Positions 1 through 63,690 of a DNA stretch of 64,000 nt are shown here, in pieces. Under the pieces are notes generated by a model that worked only from the letters and a program-made list of their open reading frames with translations, did not search any database and was not told the DNA's origin. How positions within the stretch are numbered: position 1 is the first letter of the stretch; the number at the start of each line of letters is the position of its first letter. The stretch is taken from the NCBI GenBank assembly GCA_003194525.1, contig NBIV01000040.1:329213-393212 (forward strand), written 5' to 3'. This DNA is from Gracilariopsis chorda (lineage: Eukaryota > Rhodophyta > Florideophyceae > Gracilariales > Gracilariaceae). Made by a program: the position numbers and the translations under genes.

Positions 1-926
1 ATTTGAAGAAATGCAAGTTCTTTACGAATTCTGTGAAATACCTTGGACATATCATTCGTCCTGGTCAGCTCTCTGCGGATGAAGTTCGAGTTAAATCGCT
101 TAAGACTGCAACGCATCCGGTAACGCAGAGGGAACTAAGATCCTTCCTTGGATTGTGTAACGTATACTGACGTTTCATACCTGGTTCTCCGGAAATCGCA
201 GCTTCTCTTAGCAGGCTCCTGACCAAAAGGCAACCGGTGTACTTGGCACCTTTTGATGACATGGAATCTACTGCTTTCTCAAAGCTTGTGGATGCTGTTA
301 CCTCACCACCAATCTTGGCCCTTCCCGAACTTGGGCTCCCCTATGAAGTGGAAACTGATGCCAGTGATAACCAGGTTGGTTGTGCACTGTTTCATATCAC
401 AGAAGATGGTGTAGGAATTCCTATCGGATTCTGGTCGAGAAGTTTAAACGTGCACAAATGTAACTACTCGGTTCCTGCGAAAGAGTGTCTTGTCGTTGTA
501 TGGGCATTGACAACGCTCTGTCCTTACCTTATGGGTACTTACTTTAAGGAATATACAGATCACGCGTGTCTCCGTTGGCTTATGGAGATCACCGAACTCT
601 CCGGTCGCTTGATGCGTTGGAGCTTACGCCTATTGGAGTTCAATTTCGATTTTTTACACAAGAAAGGATCCTCTAATGATCAAGCCGATGCTATATCCCG
701 ACTGGGAACTAATGTAAAAGCAGAACCGACAACGGATCTGGATATACCATGCTTCATGGTTGAAGACCTATATGGAAGTTCTGAAATCCTTTCGGATGAT
801 GTATGTGACGACATACTGTCTATGGAAAGCTCAAATCTCCCTGCTGGTTCATTTGCACCTATTGCTCTGGACGAGATGATCCGTGAACCACACTTGGATT
901 CGTTCTGCACGCAGATTCGAGTATGA
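1..926 (+). pseudogene. Ty3/gypsy pol fragment: end of RT plus RNase H
   Basis: The first 200 bases match the end of the RT domain of element B (about 58230-58420: a KYLGHI-like stretch followed by RSFLGL), but the frame is broken. From 237 an open frame of about 229 codons carries the tethered RNase H domain: an ETDASDNQVGCALF-type motif, KECLVVVWAL, then YTDHACLRWLM and an Asp-containing ADAISRL end. In element B the same motifs lie at 58560-58940. The reported start at 237 is simply the first Met after a break. In the complete element this region would be an internal part of a gag-pol polyprotein. Confidence 0.8.
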
Positions 927-1134
927 CTCAACGGAGTAGATCTAATACCGTTCGTGGTGAGTGATTAAAAATATCTGGTTAGATTGGTCGAATCAACACC
1001 ACAAATTGTGGTATCGCACTCATTTCAATAGCGAGCGTTACATATATCCCACTATGTGAAGTTAAGAGCTCACCCTAGAGCTCAAAAGTTATTCCCATCC
1101 CTCAGAATAAGTTTCTACTGACCCGCTATGGCAT

Positions 1135-1800
1135 TTGACTGCTATGTAGTTCGCTGTTCTTGTACGGAGTGTGCTGAGAACAACTTGAAGCTACGTAAGT
1201 ACTCTAGGAAGCTAACGTTATTCCCAGGTCGGGCTCCACTGGAATTCGTCGCCATCGATGTACTTGGAGAGCTTATTTGAAGACCTCGAGGACACAAGTT
1301 CTTCCTTGCCATAGCCGATCGGTTTTCTAAACTGATACAGACAGTGCCATTGAAACGGATTGCTGTTAGTGCAGTGGCGCAAGCTTTTGTCAGTCAGTTG
1401 GTCTTCTTTTCCGGCCACCCGTTAATTTACTCTCAGATAATGGAGGCCAGTTCACTTCTAAGTCTTTCTAGGATGTCTGTCGAATCTTGGCGATCAAGGA
1501 ATTGTTCAAAACGACAGATCCCCTCTAAAGAAATGGACAGGTACAACGATTTAATCGTACAATGCTTAATGCATTAAGATCCTATGTGGTGGATCACCCC
1601 AAGGAATGGGACTTATACACTGATGATATAACGTATTCCTACAATACCCATGTTCATCGGGTTACTTCGCTTTCACCTTTTGAGTTAATCGTGTCCCGTA
1701 TCCCACCACACGTGCTATCGAGGTACAACCGACTCTCTCAAAGAAGTCCTCGCCAGGTTTATACCGTGTATCGTGGAAACGATGGCTCACAAAAATAGTA
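1135..1800 (+). pseudogene. Ty3/gypsy integrase remnant
   Basis: Broken integrase core. A frame around 1225-1280 reads PGRAPLEFVAIDVLG, containing the first catalytic Asp, and corresponds to 59490-59530 of element B. It continues past a TGA with HKFFLAIADRFSKLIQTVPL. A second frame (1562-1798) reads like the post-catalytic segment, with DHPKEWDLYTDDITYSYNTHVHR followed by SPFELI. The stretch carrying the second Asp and the Glu is scrambled by indels, so no active enzyme is possible. Confidence 0.75.
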
Positions 1801-2847
1801 CCAATGGCTCGGAAAGCCATGGTGAAAGCTCAGGACGCCTAAAAGCGTAATTCCAATAGCAACGTTCATACACGTCTTCCAAAGGTTGCTACAAATGACT
1901 TTGTATTCGTATGCCAAGATTACTATTATCCTGGGAAGGAACATCGTCAAAAGCTCTTCCCAAATTGTGGATGAACCCTATCGAGTGGCATCTACTGATG
2001 CGAACACTGTTGTGTTGGATATTAACAATCAACAACCCGTTTAGCCTCGTGGTACTCAACGAAATCATCTGCAAGTACTCACTCGAGTAACACCCCCACC
2101 TGAGGTTCTTTCCGCTCCCACAGCTCTGGCTAAAGAGGGGCAGAGTGCTGGTAAAATCGCTGTCCATGTATCGCCGTCACTGGGAACTCCGCTCGCTGCA
2201 TCCCGTCGCAACGCTGCATTGGCTCCAGAGGGAGGAACTTCTTCTAAGGAACCGAACCTTCGAGGTATAAGAGACGCTACGCTTCAATGCGAAGAGAGTA
2301 CCGTCACTAAGGATCAGACTACCCCATTGCGAAAAGACACTACTGGTAACACCAATGCTGTGGTTGAACCGTCATCTTCAACGAAGAAGGACAATCGCAC
2401 TCGCGAAGTTGGAGAATCCACCGATAAGATGGTCTCCGCAGACGTATATGGGATTTTGTAAGGCGATTGCAACCTTAGTTGGTCGATCTCGTAGTGTAGA
2501 GAAGAAAGAAGCTCCATGAAATTACTGAAGTCATTTCCGAGAACTTCTTGGCACAAGTCATACCGTCATTGGTGAAATTGGACGAACAGGTCTACGCTGT
2601 GATACCCTTTCTGTTGGCAAATACGAAGAACCGGGTTACAGTGCCAGAGCATGCCGACGCTTGTGCACACGCCCTGTGGTGACCGTTCGAAATTGCAACA
2701 CTATTTGGTGACGCACAGTACTTTTGTGGCTCTCGTGGGCTCGACCAAAACCAACCAGATGGTGGCAAAGGCACAGTGCTTGGTGAACCGCCACCCTGGC
2801 GCAGTGATTGCAGTGTTTTAGTGACTCCGTAGCAACGGTACATCCGT

Positions 2848-3338
2848 ATGGATGAGGAGAACTTCTCGAATCTCGGAGGCCACCGTTCCGCGCTACGCGT
2901 CATGGTGATGGATAACACAGAATTGTATTCACAGGAGTTCGTCGTGGAACGTATGGTGCGTCATGAAACTAGCAAGAGAGTAATGCAGTTTCTCATCCGT
3001 TGGTATGGATATTCACCCGAGGAGGATACATGGGAAACCATCGAGAACCTCCCAAGGTCCAAGATTATATCTTATCACCCTAGGACCCGGTCGCCTCTCC
3101 CATCCACCTTGGATAATGCGCAAGTTGGATAACCACACTTGTTGGAATTGCGCAGGGCGTTGATACTACCGCCACGCAGTATGTGAAAGAAATCGAGGAG
3201 AGTGATAAGTTGAGAACTCTGATAGGGATGGAGGTTCCAGGAATATTTCCCTTTACTCATCAAATTGACGGTTTCACCGAATTAACGGTTTATGAAGATA
3301 TGCCTCATGTTTATGAAGTATACGACGAAGAAGTGTAA
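2848..3338 (+). pseudogene. Chromodomain and C-terminal tail of element A pol
   Basis: The frame 2848-3132 contains a chromodomain: EFVVERMVRHE, then FLIRWYGYSPEEDTWE and ENLPRSKIISYH. This matches element B at 61780-61945, where the core is VRWYGYDPSGDTWEPIEHLP. After a frame change, a second coding-like stretch of about 70 codons runs to a TAA near 3338. It is acidic and has no recognised domain. Chromodomains on gypsy integrases are known to direct insertion to particular chromatin; that role is inferred here from the family. The 1800-2850 stretch upstream is a linker without a recognisable domain. Confidence 0.8.
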
Positions 3339-3571
3339 AGCAAGAAGTGAGAAGAAAAAGTATAAAGGAAAAAGTTTGTTTACTCTGTGTTCAGAAAATC
3401 TACCATGAGGTGATCGAGTACAGCTAGGTTGCTACACTCCCAATGAGGGACCGGCATTACCTTTGTTTGACGCTCCTTGCGTATGCTGCGCTGCAAACGC
3501 TAGCAGCTGGCTTACGTCTTTCATACCAGGCAGAACTGCGATACCCAGACTCAACAGGTTAGCTCGTGTTT

Positions 3572-5116
3572 TCACGATTTCTGCGGATACTGCAGTTGGG
3601 GTCGAGCACTCTGCAGAGTTCCCAAATTCCAACCGGATGGTGCCGCAGCTCCTGTAGCGTACATTTCGGCAACGCAGTCACCCGAAGAGTTCACAATGGC
3701 CATGAGATCGGCGCCACCAAGCGCGTTCGCTTCATCATCCAACATCGGATCTTTGAGGTCAACCGGAGCATCATTGAAGACGAACCCTGTAAGGTGATCC
3801 TCAGGAATCAAGCGTGGGACGTTGTTTAACAATAACGCTTGAGCACGTGACGTGTCACACCTTTTGTACGGGTCGTAATAGATGAAATCCTCAGCTCCTG
3901 GATGCTGACGACCCAGAGACCGGTCATAGGAAGAACGGTTACCCATTGCAAGATTACCGTACGACAAGGTGTTCCAGTTAACCTGATCAACCACATCTAG
4001 GATGTAATTCAGTTCATCCACGTTCTCTTCGGAACCGAGAAATGTGTGAAGATTCAGTGCTTGCATTACCTTTCGGAGGTACGGAGGTAGGCACCAAACC
4101 CTACAATGGTCATACGCTTCTCAAAGGGTGAAAACCGCAATGCGGGTAGCCCAACTGGCGAGTAATAACGACAAGTATCTAGACCTCGGATTGATGAGTA
4201 TGCGGGACGCCCTGTACGTAAGACACGGAGGGAGTTCCAGGTAACACCCTTTGGGTACTTCAATACGAGACCACCAAGTTGGCAAGGGTACAAAACGCCC
4301 GTCGAAAGCCTGTGGCTGGTATCGTTCTGTTTCGATGTTCACGTATGGGATCAAGTATCGGTGACGGTATCGTGCTTTCCGCTCGAACTGGATATAACAG
4401 GCCAGCCTGCAGAGTGTAATGACTTGCCGTATGTATCTGAACTCTGCTCGAAAAAGGGGCTGTGCCCAGCAGAGCATATCTGGTTCGATACGAACGATAC
4501 TCCTGTTAAACACCGCAGGGTCGAATGCAGCCAGTTGGTCTCCGTACGAGATTTTACCGTAGGTTCGGTATCTTGATAGGTCGAATCTATACAGGTACGG
4601 TACTGGGCTCGCATTCCGCGCATGGCTTAACCATTTGTACGCAAGGTTCGTCATCTCTTCACAGTCCTTGTAAAAGGCTTCACGTTTGTGGTCATGGATC
4701 CTCAACAGATGCGGGTCGATCGCTATGCGACCTATCCAATCGGAGGATATGAATATGTCAATAGGTGACCCATCGGGTAAGAGGCCACTAGTAAGGTACG
4801 AAGAGATCAACGCGTGATTTTGAACCACTTCGGGGTGAAACCACGGTGCTCTTGAGAAGAGATAACTATCCGGCAGGGGATTGCGTATGGGGAGCGTATC
4901 CTTTGATACCCATCCAGAAGTACAGGTCGTCACCGGCATTGATTCTTCTGAATTCCAGGGCACGGCCAAGGGATCCAATGTGGGACCCGTCGGGTGTTGC
5001 GGCAACAGAGCCGAGGGAAAACCAGTCATTTGGTGTACGCTCGCCGGTAGAGGTTCAGAAGTACCAGCAGAGCTGGAGGCACCCCGGAGAGGGTTGGACG
5101 GAAAGTGCATTGGCAT
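3572..5116 (-). pseudogene. Antisense accessory ORF of element A (unrecognised protein)
   Basis: A single minus-strand frame of about 514 codons runs from ATG 5116 to 3572. It is interrupted by one TGA (4123-4121), after which the same frame continues through Met 4066. Open sequence extends upstream to 5146 without an earlier ATG. The protein matches the minus strand of element B at 63690-62420 over nearly its full length. Shared short motifs include PWFHP, RAEFRY, IPY.N.E, CY.ELPP.LTY, DFIY.DP and PEDH. No known domain, signal peptide or membrane segment was recognised; aromatic and Arg residues are frequent. It lies between pol and the 3' LTR and would need its own antisense promoter. It could be a regulator, a nucleocapsid-like protein or something else; the function is unknown. 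Confidence 0.7.
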
Positions 5117-5506
5117 CCTTAGAGGAGTTTGTAGTTCGTATTCCAAAGTTATTACTCGAGTTCGAGTTTAGCGCTTCGGATATCTGGAGTGTATCGCCTG
5201 ATTTGCGAGGAACCGGAATTTCGGAGGAACTCACGATGAGTCTGTTACTTAAGCAATTTGCCGCCTGCGAGTTCCTCTCAAAGAGTGCGGGAGCACTCGG
5301 CTAAGGAGGTGAAGATGTGGGGCAACGCGAAAAACGGGTAAATCGCGATGATGGTACTAATAGGGGTGTGACGCGGTTACCTTGACCGCTCTACCGTAGA
5401 TGAGATGGACCAGTACGAGTTGATGCCAATGGGATTGTTTACTGTATGAACTTTCACCTGAGAAGGTAGGAATCTAGAATGGAGTGCAGTATGAGTGGAT
5501 GTGTGT

Positions 5507-5553
5507 GCACGTGTGCGTGTGTGCGTGTGTGCGTGTGTGGGCGTGTGCGACAG
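5507..5553 (+). repeat. GTGTGCGT-type microsatellite in the LTR
   Basis: About 47 bp of alternating GT/GC (GTGTGCGTGTGTGCGT pattern). The inverted LTR copy near 7825-7845 has only a short version, so the array expanded in one copy. Confidence 0.85.
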
Positions 5554-6664
5554 CACCATGCTGTAGTGTTATGTTTTTCTTGGGTTGACCCCTCAGCGTG
5601 CCTGACACTGGCCTGGCTACCTTTGTGGACCTGAGGAGGTGTGGACTATTGTAGTTAATTATTATAGTTTATTTCGTAGTGTACCTACTTATGTGAGCGC
5701 GACCTGATCATCGAGAGCACTAAGTAAAGTTAACCCGAGATATTGGTCATTCATAACTGTTCAGTCTGACCTGAGGTATCCGGCTCTGGATTGTGGCGTC
5801 ATTGCGCCATGTACTACTCCTCACATAGGGTCATCTCATTTGGTTGGCTCAATTCAACGGCTTGATAAGCATACAGATACTCTGTGTTATAATTGTCGTG
5901 TGACACTTATCTACCGTGTGGTACTGGTAATGCCCCTGTATTTGGTAATTTGTCCGCTATATCCCATGCATGTGCTCAGTCCGTCGGATCTGTTTCCGTT
6001 CCCGCACGACCTGCCGGGTGGGTTTTCTCCGTCCTTGGAAGGAACTCTTCACCGGGTATATTCTAAACCGCCGCATCGTGTGGCACACGGGTCTCTGGTT
6101 GTACCGTCTTTCTGGCTCCAGTTCACCTTTCTTCGTCCACCTCTGTGGTCAATCCGAAATACCTTCGGAGCTACGCTCGTATTAGAGGTATACAGAGGGC
6201 TGTGTCGCTGAGTCTGACTCCACAGGGAGCAAGGCCGCGGACAACTTGAGTGTGATACCCAACCTTCGAGTTTTGCACTAGATTTAGTCAGATACATTGT
6301 TCGATATCACAACCGACTCATTATTAGAATTTTCTACAGGACGCAGAAGTCCTTGTCATGCAACCGTTTGTAGTGCAAAACTCGGGAATGGGTGACACTC
6401 AAGGATGTCCGACTCTCTGCCCTCTTGCGAGGTAGGCTCAGTGGCTGAGCACTCCGTCTACCCAGGTGTCGGGTGTAAGACTGACGGTAGTTCGGAAATA
6501 CCACGGAGGTAAAGAGGAACGGTAAAACCGGGAAACGGTGGAACACGCGTACAGTGGACCAGTGCGAACCCCGAAAAGGGGGCTATCCAAAGACAGAACG
6601 GAACCACCCGACGGGTCGTGCGGACACCGGGAACAGACCCGACGGTGGGTGCAAAAGCAACAAA

Positions 6665-58200: not shown

Positions 58201-60225
58201 GACCGTACTTCCGCGATGCGGGAATTACCATCAAGTTGAGGAAATGCGAGTTTTTCACAGATACTGTGAAGTATCTGGGTCACATTATCCGTCCTGGACG
58301 GTTAGCGATCGAGAAAGCTCGAGTCAAATCCCTCGTTGAGGCGAAAGAACCCCGTACTCAAACGGAACTGCGCTCCTTTCTGGGGCTGGTCAACGTCTAT
58401 CGAAGGTTTATCCCGAACTTTTCGGATACTGCAGCGCCCCTGAACGCGTTGTTGCGAAAGGGGAACCCCCAAAACTGGGAACATTTACGCCCGAGCAATC
58501 GGAAGCCTTTAACTCCTTGAAGGAGGCTGTCACATCAGCACCAATCCTACATCTCCCAAAACTTGGGTTGCCATACTCCGTAGATACGGACTCGAGCGAC
58601 TACCAAGTCGGGTGTGCTCTTTTTCAAACCACCCCCGAGGGGGAACGACACCCAATTGGTTATTGGTCGCGCTCGCTCAATGTCCATGAGCGGAACTACT
58701 CCGTATCGGAGAAAGAGTGCCTCGCCGTCGTATGGGCGATGACCACTCTGCGCCCCTACCTTATGGGAGTCCATTTCACCGTGTACACGGATCATTCCTC
58801 ACTGAGGTGGTTAATGAATATCTCCGACCCGTCGGGACGCCTCATGCGCTGGAGACTCCGCCTCGCGGAATATGACTTCCAAGTCATTTATAAAAAAGGG
58901 CGCGCAGAACACCCAAGCCGACGCTCTGTCGCGTTTACCCACAAGTGGGGAGGCACTCCCAACGGAGGATGATGAAGTCCCATGTTTCATGGCAATGGAC
59001 CCGGATGATCCGGAATGTGCCGTCGAGGCTGAGCCAGAAAACTGGGACGAAGATGCTGACTTCGACTACCTACTCGCATCGCGAGATGATTCTGAGAAAC
59101 CCATACCGGGAAATTATGTACCGGTTGAGACCGAGGAAATGATCCGAGAACAATTCGGGGACCCCTTCTGTACAAGGATACGTGCACGCCTCAACGGCGG
59201 AGAGAACCTCCCCTTCGGGGTGAACGACATTGGTTACCTCGTGAGGACCGTCGAGGCTACCCCACAAGTTGTGGTACCGCACACGCTACAGAAGCGGATA
59301 TTGCACCTTTCGCATTACCCGAAACTCGGGGGACACTCCGGTGGGAGGAAGCTTTATCTAACCCTTCGCAGGGATTTCTACTGGCCCGCCATGGCGGTTG
59401 ATTGCTACGCTACGGTGCGGTTTTTGCACGCAATGCGCGAAGAACCGGGTCAAACTCCGGAAGCACTCCAAACGGATGAAGCTATTCCCCGCCAGGGCGC
59501 CGCTCGAGTTTGTCGCAATTGACATTCTCGGACCATTGCTCTCTACCAGGAGAGGCAACAAGTTCCTACTCGTTATTACGGACAGGTTCTCGAAATTAGT
59601 TCGGACAGTCCCCTCTAAAGAGGATTACCGCCTACACGGTCGCTCACGCCTTTGTGCGGCATTGGGTGTTTGCCTACGGACCTCCTTTGGAGCTACTTTC
59701 CGACAACGGGAAACAGTTCGCATCGCAATTTTTCCAGGACGTCTGTCGGATACTGGACGTGAAGAATCTCTTCACGACCACGTATCATCCCCAGTCTAAT
59801 GGGCAGGTCGAGCGTTTCAACCGGACAATGCTCGCAGCTCTCCGTGCTTACACGGCTGACCACCCCAAGACTTGGGATATCTACACGGATGCCGTGACCT
59901 TTGCGTACAATACGCAGGTACACCGGACTACCGGAATATCCCCTTTCGAGTTGGTCCTTTCACGGACACCCCCGCCAATGGCGTTGGAATCCCAACCTAC
60001 GTTGGACGCGTTCCCTTCTGTGAAGGATTACCGCCAGAAGTGGAAAGCATGGCTGACCAAGCTGGTACCCGCAGCGCGGAAGGCGATGGACCACGCCCAA
60101 GCCGCCTACAAACGGAATTTCGATGCTCGCTTGCGAGGAGGCAAACCGGAACAGATCAACTCCGGGGACTTCGTATTCGTCCGCAAGGAGTACTACAACC
60201 CTGAAAGGGAGAAAGCACCATAAGC
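58200..60225 (+). pseudogene. pol of element B, part 2: RNase H and integrase across several frames
   Basis: RT connection 58230-58520 (KYLGHIIRPG, RSFLGLVNVYRRF); RNase H 58517-58950 (VDTDSSDYQVGCALFQ, KECLAVVWAMTTLRPY, YTDHSSLRWLM, then ADALSRLP in a shifted frame). Integrase zinc site at 59305-59440 (HLSHYPKLGGHSG...CTQCAKN, across a frameshift). Core: FVAIDILGPL at 59508, LLSDNGKQF at 59694 and SNGQVERFNRTM at 59797 carry the D, D and E residues. The integrase C-terminal region runs to 60223 and on in another frame. At least five frame changes occur, so the enzyme set is dead although each catalytic motif is intact. Confidence 0.85.
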
Positions 60226-61770
60226 TCTCGCCTGTGGCGGATGGTCCTTTCAAGGTTATCTCCGTCACGACGGACACAGTGGTTGTGGAAATGGGTGAAC
60301 GCGCATGAGCGGTTATCTCGCGATCGCATCGTGCTAGCTCCGCCACCCTCGACTGAGGCTGCACCAGCTACGCTGGACCCTACGCTGGAATATGGCTCTG
60401 CATCCGATACAATCGGTGGTGAGACGGCCTACCGTGCTACCAACACCCCTCCCGGGGACTCTCAGACCTACCGACCCTGTCGGACTCACCGGCTCAGCCG
60501 GGTAATTCGGGCCTCTCTGTGCCCGCCCTATGGCGCGAATCTACACCCGCCAGGCGGGGCATGTTATCCCTTATCCCGCCGCTCCGTCTCAGGAGGGGGA
60601 GGAGAACACTCGTTTTCGAGGAATGAGATCGCCGTCGCAACGGGAAACACGCCGTACCATACGGACAACTGACCGCGGAGCACGGAGTATCTCACGCGAC
60701 ACTAATCCCCCGTCCTCGGGCAGCGCTGTGCAACAGGAACCAGACGCGCAGGTCCCGCAAAGGCGGCAAATACACCGTGTTACACGGGAAGCTGAAACGC
60801 AGCTACCGCACACCCCTGTCAGGGAAGGATCCCCGAATACGGGAGTACGGCGACAATCGCCCTCAATCCCCTGGGCAGGGAGATGCCTCAAAGCCGCCAT
60901 TGGCGGAAGTCCCCGCGGAAGCGGTTCAATCAGGTCGCTCAGACCGCGCCCCGCGGAGAAGAGGCGCCCAGATACACCAGCGCCGCTGGGAAATACCCAC
61001 ACCCCTATCGGGGGGGTAGCCAAGCCGCATCCGAAGCTTCAGGCCCTGGCGCGCAGCGCTCGGAAACGCTCCCCGTCGCAGACGGAATCGAAGCCCCCGG
61101 GGAATAATGCGCCAACTACCGCAACGCTGCGGCGAAGAACCGAGGAACTCGGGAAAAACGCGCGCGCATCGCACGCTCGAAACGTACCGGACGCTGCTCC
61201 TCCATGGAGACGGTGCACCGCACTTAGCGGCCAGGCCCCTGAAAAGGGTGTCATCGGCACCTGCCCGGCACCCCCAAAGGGGAATTTTGACCAAAATACC
61301 GGTGTACCGGAGTTAGCCTTAGGCAACCCCCAGTAGCCGGGGACACCACGGCGCCGCCGGAACGTACGGTGCAGAGCGCTCGTGCGCCTGGCAGGGAGGC
61401 GGTTTGCCATCCAACCACCGTGCCGCACGGGACCCCCAGGGGATCGTGGAAACGCCGATTCCGCAGGAGCGGTCATCTTCCCGCAAACTCGCGGTTCGTG
61501 AGTTCAACCGCGAATGCGGAGTTCAAGTCCCCCGCCGGTTGGCGGTTCGCCTGGCCTACCGTGAAGACGGGAACAACGACACCCAATGGGGAATGACTTG
61601 CCGGGGAAAACCGTGACACCACATACCCTCTTGAGGGATATTTTCCCGCATGAGCAGCGGCCACTAGGACAGCGCACGGCAACGTCGGAGTTATCGCCGA
61701 ACACCCTGCTAAGGGACATTATACCGCACCGCGGACAACCCTCGCAAGGGAGTACAACCACCACCCGGCA
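60226..61770 (+). other. Low-complexity linker of element B pol
   Basis: About 1.5 kb between the integrase C-terminus and the chromodomain. It is GC-rich and Pro/Arg/Ser-rich in every frame, with dense micro-hairpins. It corresponds to the poorly conserved 1800-2850 stretch of element A. Confidence 0.5.
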
Positions 61771-62029
61771 CGGCCGGCAGGTCTACGAACGAGAGTTCGT
61801 AGTAGACCGACTTGTCGGACACACCTGGGACCAGGATGGTATTCTACAATACCGCGTCCGCTGGTACGGGTACGACCCCAGTGGGGATACGTGGGAGCCA
61901 ATTGAACACCTCCCACGGTCGCAGATCGTGCGATACCACCGTCAAACGGGAACTGCAGCCCAGCCACGCTGGTTAATGCCCAAGTTGGGTAACGTTGCCG
62001 CGCGAGCGGAGGGCAATGAGAAAGGATAG
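61771..62029 (+). pseudogene. Chromodomain at the end of element B pol
   Basis: The frame ends at TAG 62027-62029. YEREFVVDRLVGHTW, then YRVRWYGYDPSGDTWEPIEHL and PRSQIVRYH form a chromodomain with the aromatic positions (Y, W, Y) of the methyl-lysine cage region largely present. It is homologous to 2930-3090 in element A. In chromoviruses this module guides integration. Confidence 0.88.
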
Positions 62030-62419: not shown

Positions 62420-63690
62420 AGCGCCGGTGTCCTCTACGTCCATCTCCCCGGGCTCTTCCGGATCGTTATCGACCATTGGGTCATCCCGCCGTATGCGCGG
62501 TAGTAATCGTCAGAATCGACGTACCCCACGGGTGGTCTTCCGGCACATGCCGGGGCGCATCGCGAAGTTCGCGCGCCTCCTCGGAGGAAATTTCCCGGAA
62601 CTCCCAGGGGTCGAAGTAGATAAAATCACCGCAAGGGCGGTGTTTCTACCCAGTCCCGGGCCACCGGTGTTACCGCTGCCGCCATCCAGACGACCGCTTT
62701 GCTCCAGCGGGACCTCACTCCAGCTAACGCTGTCGATGTACCCAAGTAATTGGAGGACCTCTTCATTGTTGGCCTGGCCCCAAGGGGGATGCGAAGATCC
62801 AGGTTTCGGATCGCTGCCCGCACGCGCGGTTGAAGGAACCAGAGAGATACTGGTCGTACGCCTCGTTGAGGATATAAGCCGCATTGCGGGCCGCCCACTC
62901 CGTAACCACTACGGACCACAACCCCGACCGGGGATCCTGCATGAGCAGCGAACCGAGGTACGTAAGTACCGGCGGAAGTTCTACGTAGCACCCCCGGCAG
63001 GCTTCATGGAAGCGCCACCACTCGGGGAGTGCTACATACCGACCTAGTCGGTGAGGCGGCGCAATCCGCTCTATCTCCACGTTCTGATACGGGATAAAGT
63101 ACCCGAATCGGGATCGCCAACGCCGCTCGTAGCGGATGAAGTTTTGGAGAAAGTTGGACCGGTATTGCCGGGGAAGGTACCTGAACTCCGCCCGAATAAT
63201 CGGTCGCTCCCAGCAAAGGGCCTCTTGCCGCGCTGCGGGGAAATTCCTCCAAGCGAGGGTCTCGAGGCGGAACAGGTTCTCGCCGTACCCAATCTCCCCG
63301 CGAGTGCGGAAGTAGCTAATGTCGAAGCCAAACTCCGGTGGGACCGGTACATCGAATGGAGCCCGGCTCTGCCGTTGGTACGCCATCCGCGTCAGCGCGG
63401 TCTGCGCCGCAGCGACGGTCTCGCCCGAGTTTCTTCGGAGGTGGTGACGCGGAATCGCAATCCGGTGACGCCAATCCACGATGTGGTGACTGCTCTGGGC
63501 AGATCCCCCGGAAGGGTGTCTGAACCATCCGCATAAGCGGTGACCAACCCCTCATTGAGGACAGCGACCGGGTGAAACCACGGGGGAAGGCGCAGGCGCG
63601 ACGCGTGATTCCGATTCATCGGGTTGAGCCCCACCAGGGTGTTGTAAGTTGGCCAGTTGGACACCGGAGTGGTTCCGGAGGACACCACCG
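62420..63690 (-). pseudogene. Antisense accessory ORF of element B (unrecognised protein)
   Basis: Minus-strand coding sequence homologous to 5116-3572 of element A, split here by frameshifts. The segments are 63688-63470 (with PPWFHPVAVLNEGL), 63479-62765 (RAEFRYLPRQY, FGYFIPYQNVEIERI, CYVELPPVLTYLGSLL, EWAARNAAY), 62840-62770 (NNEEVLQLLGYIDSVSW), 62630-62500 (GDFIYFDPWEF, PRHVPEDHPWG) and 62495-62420 (DDPMVDNDPEEPG). All segments align in order with element A. The upstream part towards 63950 is unclear. No domain, signal or membrane span was recognised. Position is after pol and before the 3' LTR, transcribed towards pol. Confidence 0.7.

Follow-up and report, generated by a model that had tools for sequence, protein, structure and literature searches.

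In plants, several LTR retrotransposons carry an aORF-3R, an ORF antisense to gag-pol that lies between pol and the 3' LTR, and the available text of two studies counts Grande gene23, RIRE2, PvRetro13, and Retand ORF4 (TRP28/PF04195) among them (PMC7264820, PMC11963269). According to the accessible portions of the same sources, Boty of Botrytis cinerea also has an aORF-3R (PMC7264820), HTLV carries an antisense promoter inside its 3' LTR (PMC7264820), HBZ of HTLV-1 is an antisense gene (PMC11963269), and what the antisense genes of LTR retrotransposons do is not yet established (PMC7264820, PMC11963269). The literature searched contained no account of antisense ORFs in the retrotransposons of red algae, most subscription papers lying outside that search.

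The window considered here, a 64,000-nucleotide stretch of Gracilariopsis chorda DNA, belongs to contig C40 of an assembly of 91.3 Mb in 1081 contigs and holds two decayed element copies, A and B. A first-pass annotation of the window had proposed that both, as diverged chromodomain elements, encode a conserved protein antisense to pol that matches nothing recognized, and had noted that antisense ORFs are known in some plant gypsy lineages; the latter holds, and extends to the fungal element Boty in the available text of PMC7264820.

Layout of the antisense gene in the window and beyond

As judged from its sequence, element A belongs to the Ty3/gypsy elements with a chromodomain and is an old copy, its age following from LTRs that are 85.0% identical (Table 1). 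The antisense frame from 5116 to 3572 is present where the first-pass annotation had placed it, but it is split: a single in-frame stop at 4123-4121 separates two minus-strand ORFs, 5146-4121 (341 aa, first ATG at 5116) and 4066-3572 (164 aa). The proposed length of about 500 residues also understates the original protein, given the C-terminal module that follows in another frame and the 643-aa frame of a related young family (family 1); a like module, recognized by eye, ends the proteins of L014, L016, L022, and P0001-P0003. In element B, the collinear protein predicted across frameshifts is borne out by one aligned part and by additional motifs in other frames. A short GTGTGC-type simple repeat lies within the 3' LTR of element A (window 5500-5550).

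Table 1. Coordinates of features in elements A and B (window positions unless a contig or locus is given) and in the family-1 copy on contig C74.
Element	Feature	Coordinates	Strand	Remarks
A	5' LTR	C40:324175-325120 (= L035:1376-2321)		upstream of the window
A	RNase H domain of pol	237-926	+	PF17917, E 3.5e-27
A	RNase H and integrase region	369-2032	+	stop-broken; best piece 62% identical to family-1 pol
A	chromodomain	2929-3087	+	63% identical to family-1 domain
A	C-terminal module of antisense protein	~3489-3551	-	other frame, after frameshift
A	antisense ORF from first ATG	3572-5116	-	one stop, 4121-4123
A	polypurine-tract-like AAGGAGG motif	5303-5315	+	adjoins 3' LTR
A	3' LTR	5316-6268	+	85.0% identical to 5' LTR over 956 columns
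B	pol integrase region	58601-60494	+	broken, 6 pieces; strand opposite to antisense ORF
B	chromodomain	61787-61948	+	57% identical to family-1 domain
B	antisense protein, best-matching part	62523-63509	-	39% identical to family-1 protein
B	further antisense motifs, shifted frames	out to ~62420-63690	-	
C74 copy	LTRs	L029:4355-5275 and L014:3316-4238		99.57% identical over 923 bp
C74 copy	chromodomain	L014:6671-6510		PF00385, E 1.3e-11
C74 copy	antisense ORF	L014:4197-6125	+	

A family-1 copy on contig C74, read as two adjacent pieces (L029 and L014) with its sense strand on the minus strand, is bounded by TAGTG at both ends, a 5-bp target duplication; this copy and element A are the two for which the LTR pair was located. 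In sense order it holds a gag-position frame of 689 aa with a CCHC knuckle (seen by eye; without a Pfam match), then pol, whose domains run RVT_1, RT_RNaseH, Integrase_H2C2, and rve, and then the chromodomain; a DTG protease motif was also recognized by eye. The antisense ORF starts at the inner boundary of the 3' LTR, with its first ATG about 50 bp from that boundary, converges on pol, and stops short of the chromodomain.

The same arrangement recurs across the genome. Specifically, in 18 of 20 loci as well as in A and B, integrase lies past the 3' end of the antisense ORF on the opposite strand, the two exceptions being L015, where the contig ends, and L027, which has none at that position, while a chromodomain is present in all 18 loci searched (from the 20) and in A and B. 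In 10 of 14 copies (nine by the strict pattern, L016 by a looser one), a polypurine-tract-like motif occurs no more than 400 bp from where the open frame starts, and within that distance it is absent in L020, L021, L022, and B. Many copies show a conserved ORF antisense to gag-pol between pol and the 3' LTR, as in the aORF-3R definition. In L011, L013, and L014, stops intervene between the end of pol and the frame of the chromodomain, the chromodomain-bearing frame measuring 244-245 aa (L013:6655-5921 and L011:7458-6727, both on the minus strand), and its expression may need frameshifting, splicing, or a start of its own.

Copies, families, and relatives of the protein

The absence of the frame from other copies, which the first-pass annotation had named as a point that could count against it, is not what the genome shows: the antisense protein of element A has at least 120 matches in the 91.3-Mb assembly, a few copies contributing two pieces, and among the 120 matches listed the weakest has E 1.3e-12 and 78 contain no stop inside the match (hand count). 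Many of these matches belong to family 1, whose antisense protein is about 46% identical to that of A, whose compared copies share 97-99.7% DNA identity, and whose intact copies have an antisense frame of 643 aa from stop to stop. Long antisense frames are also found in other families (694 aa in L016, 664 in L022, 550 in L020, and 626 in L031), so that L014, L016, L020, and L022 span 550-694 aa. A chance ORF was rejected on the strength of the genome matches together with the protein-database relatives described below.

Two forms of family 1 seem to be present, distinguished by about 130 bp where pol ends (L014:7446-7456 versus L009, L010, L012, L024, L026, and L028), and open pol frames of 1490 aa and 1540 aa are each recurrent. 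At L019 (C15:283000-292000), a direct repeat of 99.6% identity over 2982 bp, containing integrase and an LTR-like piece, flanks one copy of the antisense ORF and suggests a tandem array or LTR-LTR recombination.

Database searches, which scored the 8000 candidates sharing most words, returned at least 13 relatives (P0001-P0013). Local identity with the family-1 protein is 34-54% for P0001-P0007 and P0009, P0008 is 30% identical over 35% of the query (E 6.9e-14), and P0010-P0013, reached via P0008, are 22-26% identical to P0001. P0003 is the G. chorda hypothetical protein BWQ96_10156, 44% identical to the family-1 protein and annotated under a name without any link to transposons; it has several genome matches at 97-99% identity and belongs to a repeated family. 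Its gene model omits a stretch that the sister copy L031 keeps open, and at L030 (C355, taken as the locus of BWQ96_10156) the two parts of the protein are in different frames; the annotated intron may be a prediction artefact that bridges a frameshift in a transposon copy.

By eye, the protein consists of a Pro/Ser-rich N-terminus, a core of about 350 residues rich in Arg, Trp, and Tyr, an acidic tail, and a short leucine-rich C-terminal module, and in L014 the core has a pI of 9.0 against 5.6 for the whole protein. Invariant residues in 12 aligned sequences include DWRxR, ExxY, ERxxRxR, RY, and E, and NLS-like strings are found in only four of the 10 proteins checked (L014, L016, P0005, and P0007).

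The first-pass remark that the protein matches nothing recognized agrees with every library searched. Pfam yields no family for six antisense-ORF sequences at E up to 10, a scan in which the HMMER filters discard most weak matches, and for 13 members it yields two families with one member each, at best E of 0.23 and 0.27, taken as chance; P0001-P0013 have no Pfam domain listed or significantly matched. NCBIfam, PHROGs, and PADLOC, each scanned with five proteins, give no significant match, nor do PDB sequences, where a profile search with a wide alignment returned five weak matches, none better than E 0.39 and all regarded as chance; among viral contigs none was found. A gag origin was rejected, as a profile comparison with the gag-position frame of the C74 copy gives no similarity (probability 0.05%). 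The family appears to be new, in that it is unmatched to anything described in the sources searched.

Selection on the antisense frame and co-inheritance with pol

Among nine recent family-1 copies, two of them identical, the antisense ORF has a dN/dS of 1.01 against 0.72-1.10 in control frames, and variable columns are evenly spread over codon positions (36/38/36). The pol of these copies, computed on seven of the nine after two short pieces were dropped, has a dN/dS of 0.72, and it is because this value falls within the control-frame spread of 0.67-1.19 that recent copies can judge neither gene. In separately compared recent pairs, the ORF has values of 0.64, 0.80, and 0.68, and integrase has values of 1.36 and 0.83. 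Recent copies hold mostly neutral changes, and the comparison has little power for the ORF or for pol.

Conversely, between families the antisense ORF is conserved at the level of its protein. For two diverged pairs compared by frame-blind nucleotide alignment with corrected values, dN/dS of the ORF is 0.21 in L019-L021 (dS 0.62; codon-position identity 0.85/0.88/0.68) and 0.20 in L014-L016 (dS 1.40, near saturation; 0.72/0.79/0.48), next to 0.15 and 0.14 for integrase, the latter at a dS of 2.42 that is also near saturation, and changes fall mainly on the third positions of minus-frame codons. Moreover, in 136 of 142 pairs the frame of the antisense ORF is the one among six where pN/pS is lowest; the pairs overlap in descent, are not independent, and were aligned under guidance of the ORF. 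These pairs derive from 22 of 33 loci, and of the 22 three had no motif frame and one spanned 24 aa, leaving 18; of their 153 pairs, 142 had at least 200 shared codons, and the pair L030-L031 is misaligned in this set (86% amino-acid identity at 99% DNA identity).

A constraint acting through a plus-strand frame, raised beforehand as a competing cause of the similarity, was rejected: in six representatives each plus-strand frame over the antisense ORF contains 9-31 stops, so that no sense protein explains the conservation, and the chromodomain of L014 lies outside the antisense ORF. Comparison of the families thus shows the antisense frame to be protein coding and under purifying selection, and it upholds the first-pass claim of a conserved protein in two diverged elements; a dN/dS near 1, which that annotation had regarded as contrary evidence, is seen among recent copies, where the pol comparison is weak as well, but gives way to about 0.2 between families.

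The history of the gene follows that of pol in most respects. Query-anchored trees were built for integrase and for the antisense protein from 13 loci plus A and B; both contain the groupings (L022,B), (L016,family 1), (L017,L018,L020), and (L019,(L021,L025)), while A and L023 are placed differently. Distances in the two proteins correlate at 0.82 over 105 pairs, with none of 9999 permutations as high, and at 0.42 when only nine representatives are kept; in these nine, the antisense protein is more diverged than integrase in 35 of 36 pairs, the exception being L014-L016. The tree of the antisense gene therefore largely agrees with that of integrase and, within these sequence data, demonstrates broad co-inheritance.

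Possible roles and comparison with known antisense genes

Coding capacity, purifying selection between families, position, orientation, and broad co-inheritance are established by the comparisons above, and the best explanation, at a probability of roughly 0.6, is a real minus-strand gene of a Ty3/gypsy chromodomain lineage that encodes an accessory protein translated from an antisense mRNA under LTR control, and that predates the separation of the families sampled in the genome and has since been passed on together with pol. The promoter most likely resides in the 3' LTR, because the antisense ORF opens at its inner edge; reading inward, it would produce an mRNA convergent with the sense transcript. 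As an accessory factor acting in trans, the protein would most likely bind nucleic acid or chromatin in the nucleus, the site where HBZ of HTLV-1 acts, and may tune the expression, silencing, or integration of the element. A nuclear regulatory or integration-related role is inferred from anatomy, composition, and analogy, and a similar one is proposed for the Grande and Retand antisense proteins of plants; its biochemistry is guesswork, because no library names any domain.

Regulatory antisense transcription is also proposed for plant elements (available text of PMC7264820), and the antisense RNA itself might be what matters, convergent transcription yielding double-stranded RNA that limits the element while the open frame is incidental. 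This is very improbable, as codon-position-specific conservation and a between-family dN/dS of 0.2 need selection on a protein, and long frames persist in several families. It is unlikely that the gene is host cargo carried as a passenger: the location beside integrase in 18 of 20 loci and the largely pol-congruent history speak against it, and BWQ96_10156, whose annotation as an ordinary hypothetical protein would suit a captured gene, is itself repeated and frame-disrupted at L030. Transduction is nevertheless a known route for additional ORFs in the available text of PMC7264820, and host capture could still be the ultimate origin.

A Gag-like or envelope-like protein with a structural or particle role, encoded in reverse orientation, would fit the size of 550-700 aa, the single conserved core, and the large copy number. 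For a membrane segment the customary cut-off of maximum 19-residue hydropathy is 1.6, and it is exceeded by P0004 (1.86) and P0007 (1.64), whereas the other eight of 10 proteins peak at 0.96-1.33; since the C74 copy already has a gag-position frame with a CCHC knuckle, and the profile comparison with that frame gives 0.05%, a structural protein in place of a regulator is quite unlikely. An enzyme on DNA or chromatin, such as a nuclease or a modifying enzyme, is suggested by the invariant charged and aromatic residues, but it is likewise quite improbable, no known-enzyme motif being recognized and family libraries and PDB sequences giving no significant match.

Beyond the accessory gene that is favored here, a bolder reading is offered tentatively, in which the protein would represent an undescribed superfamily with its own fold, a hallmark of an algal gypsy branch, expressed antisense from the 3' LTR and almost as necessary to the element as integrase (dN/dS 0.2 versus 0.15), perhaps for anti-silencing or for directing integration. 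In either case, the locus adds to the known antisense genes a protein family without a recognized relative, at the same position and under selection not far from that of integrase. With a 91-Mb genome and many near-identical copies, the question of what such genes do can be put to the test in a further system, and annotated hypothetical proteins of red algae can turn out to be pieces of transposons read in reverse.

The layout is already known from plants and a fungus, while the protein family itself is unmatched in sequence searches. The plant aORF-3R genes share with the present one their place between pol and the 3' LTR, their orientation antisense to gag-pol, their conservation across copies or related families, and the lack of an assigned function in the available text of the sources; Grande, RIRE2, and PvRetro13 are likened by layout alone. 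Retand belongs to a non-chromovirus lineage of flowering plants, as far as the accessible text of PMC11963269 goes, whereas the present elements carry a chromodomain and live in a red alga. Neither of its two marks, PF04195 and the lack of a chromodomain, is seen here: PF04195 (Transposase_28) was found neither in six antisense-ORF sequences at E up to 10 nor in the 13-member scan, and kinship with plant TRP28 was rejected by Pfam on this ground. Boty, likened by layout alone in the available text, is a non-plant element with an antisense ORF between pol and the 3' LTR, but its host is a fungus. HBZ of HTLV-1, likened by arrangement alone, shares the antisense orientation and, in the available text, the setting of an antisense promoter in the 3' LTR that is supposed for the present elements, but belongs to a retrovirus; should the bolder reading hold, the red-algal gene would mean that the layout of HBZ and gene23 had arisen independently once more.
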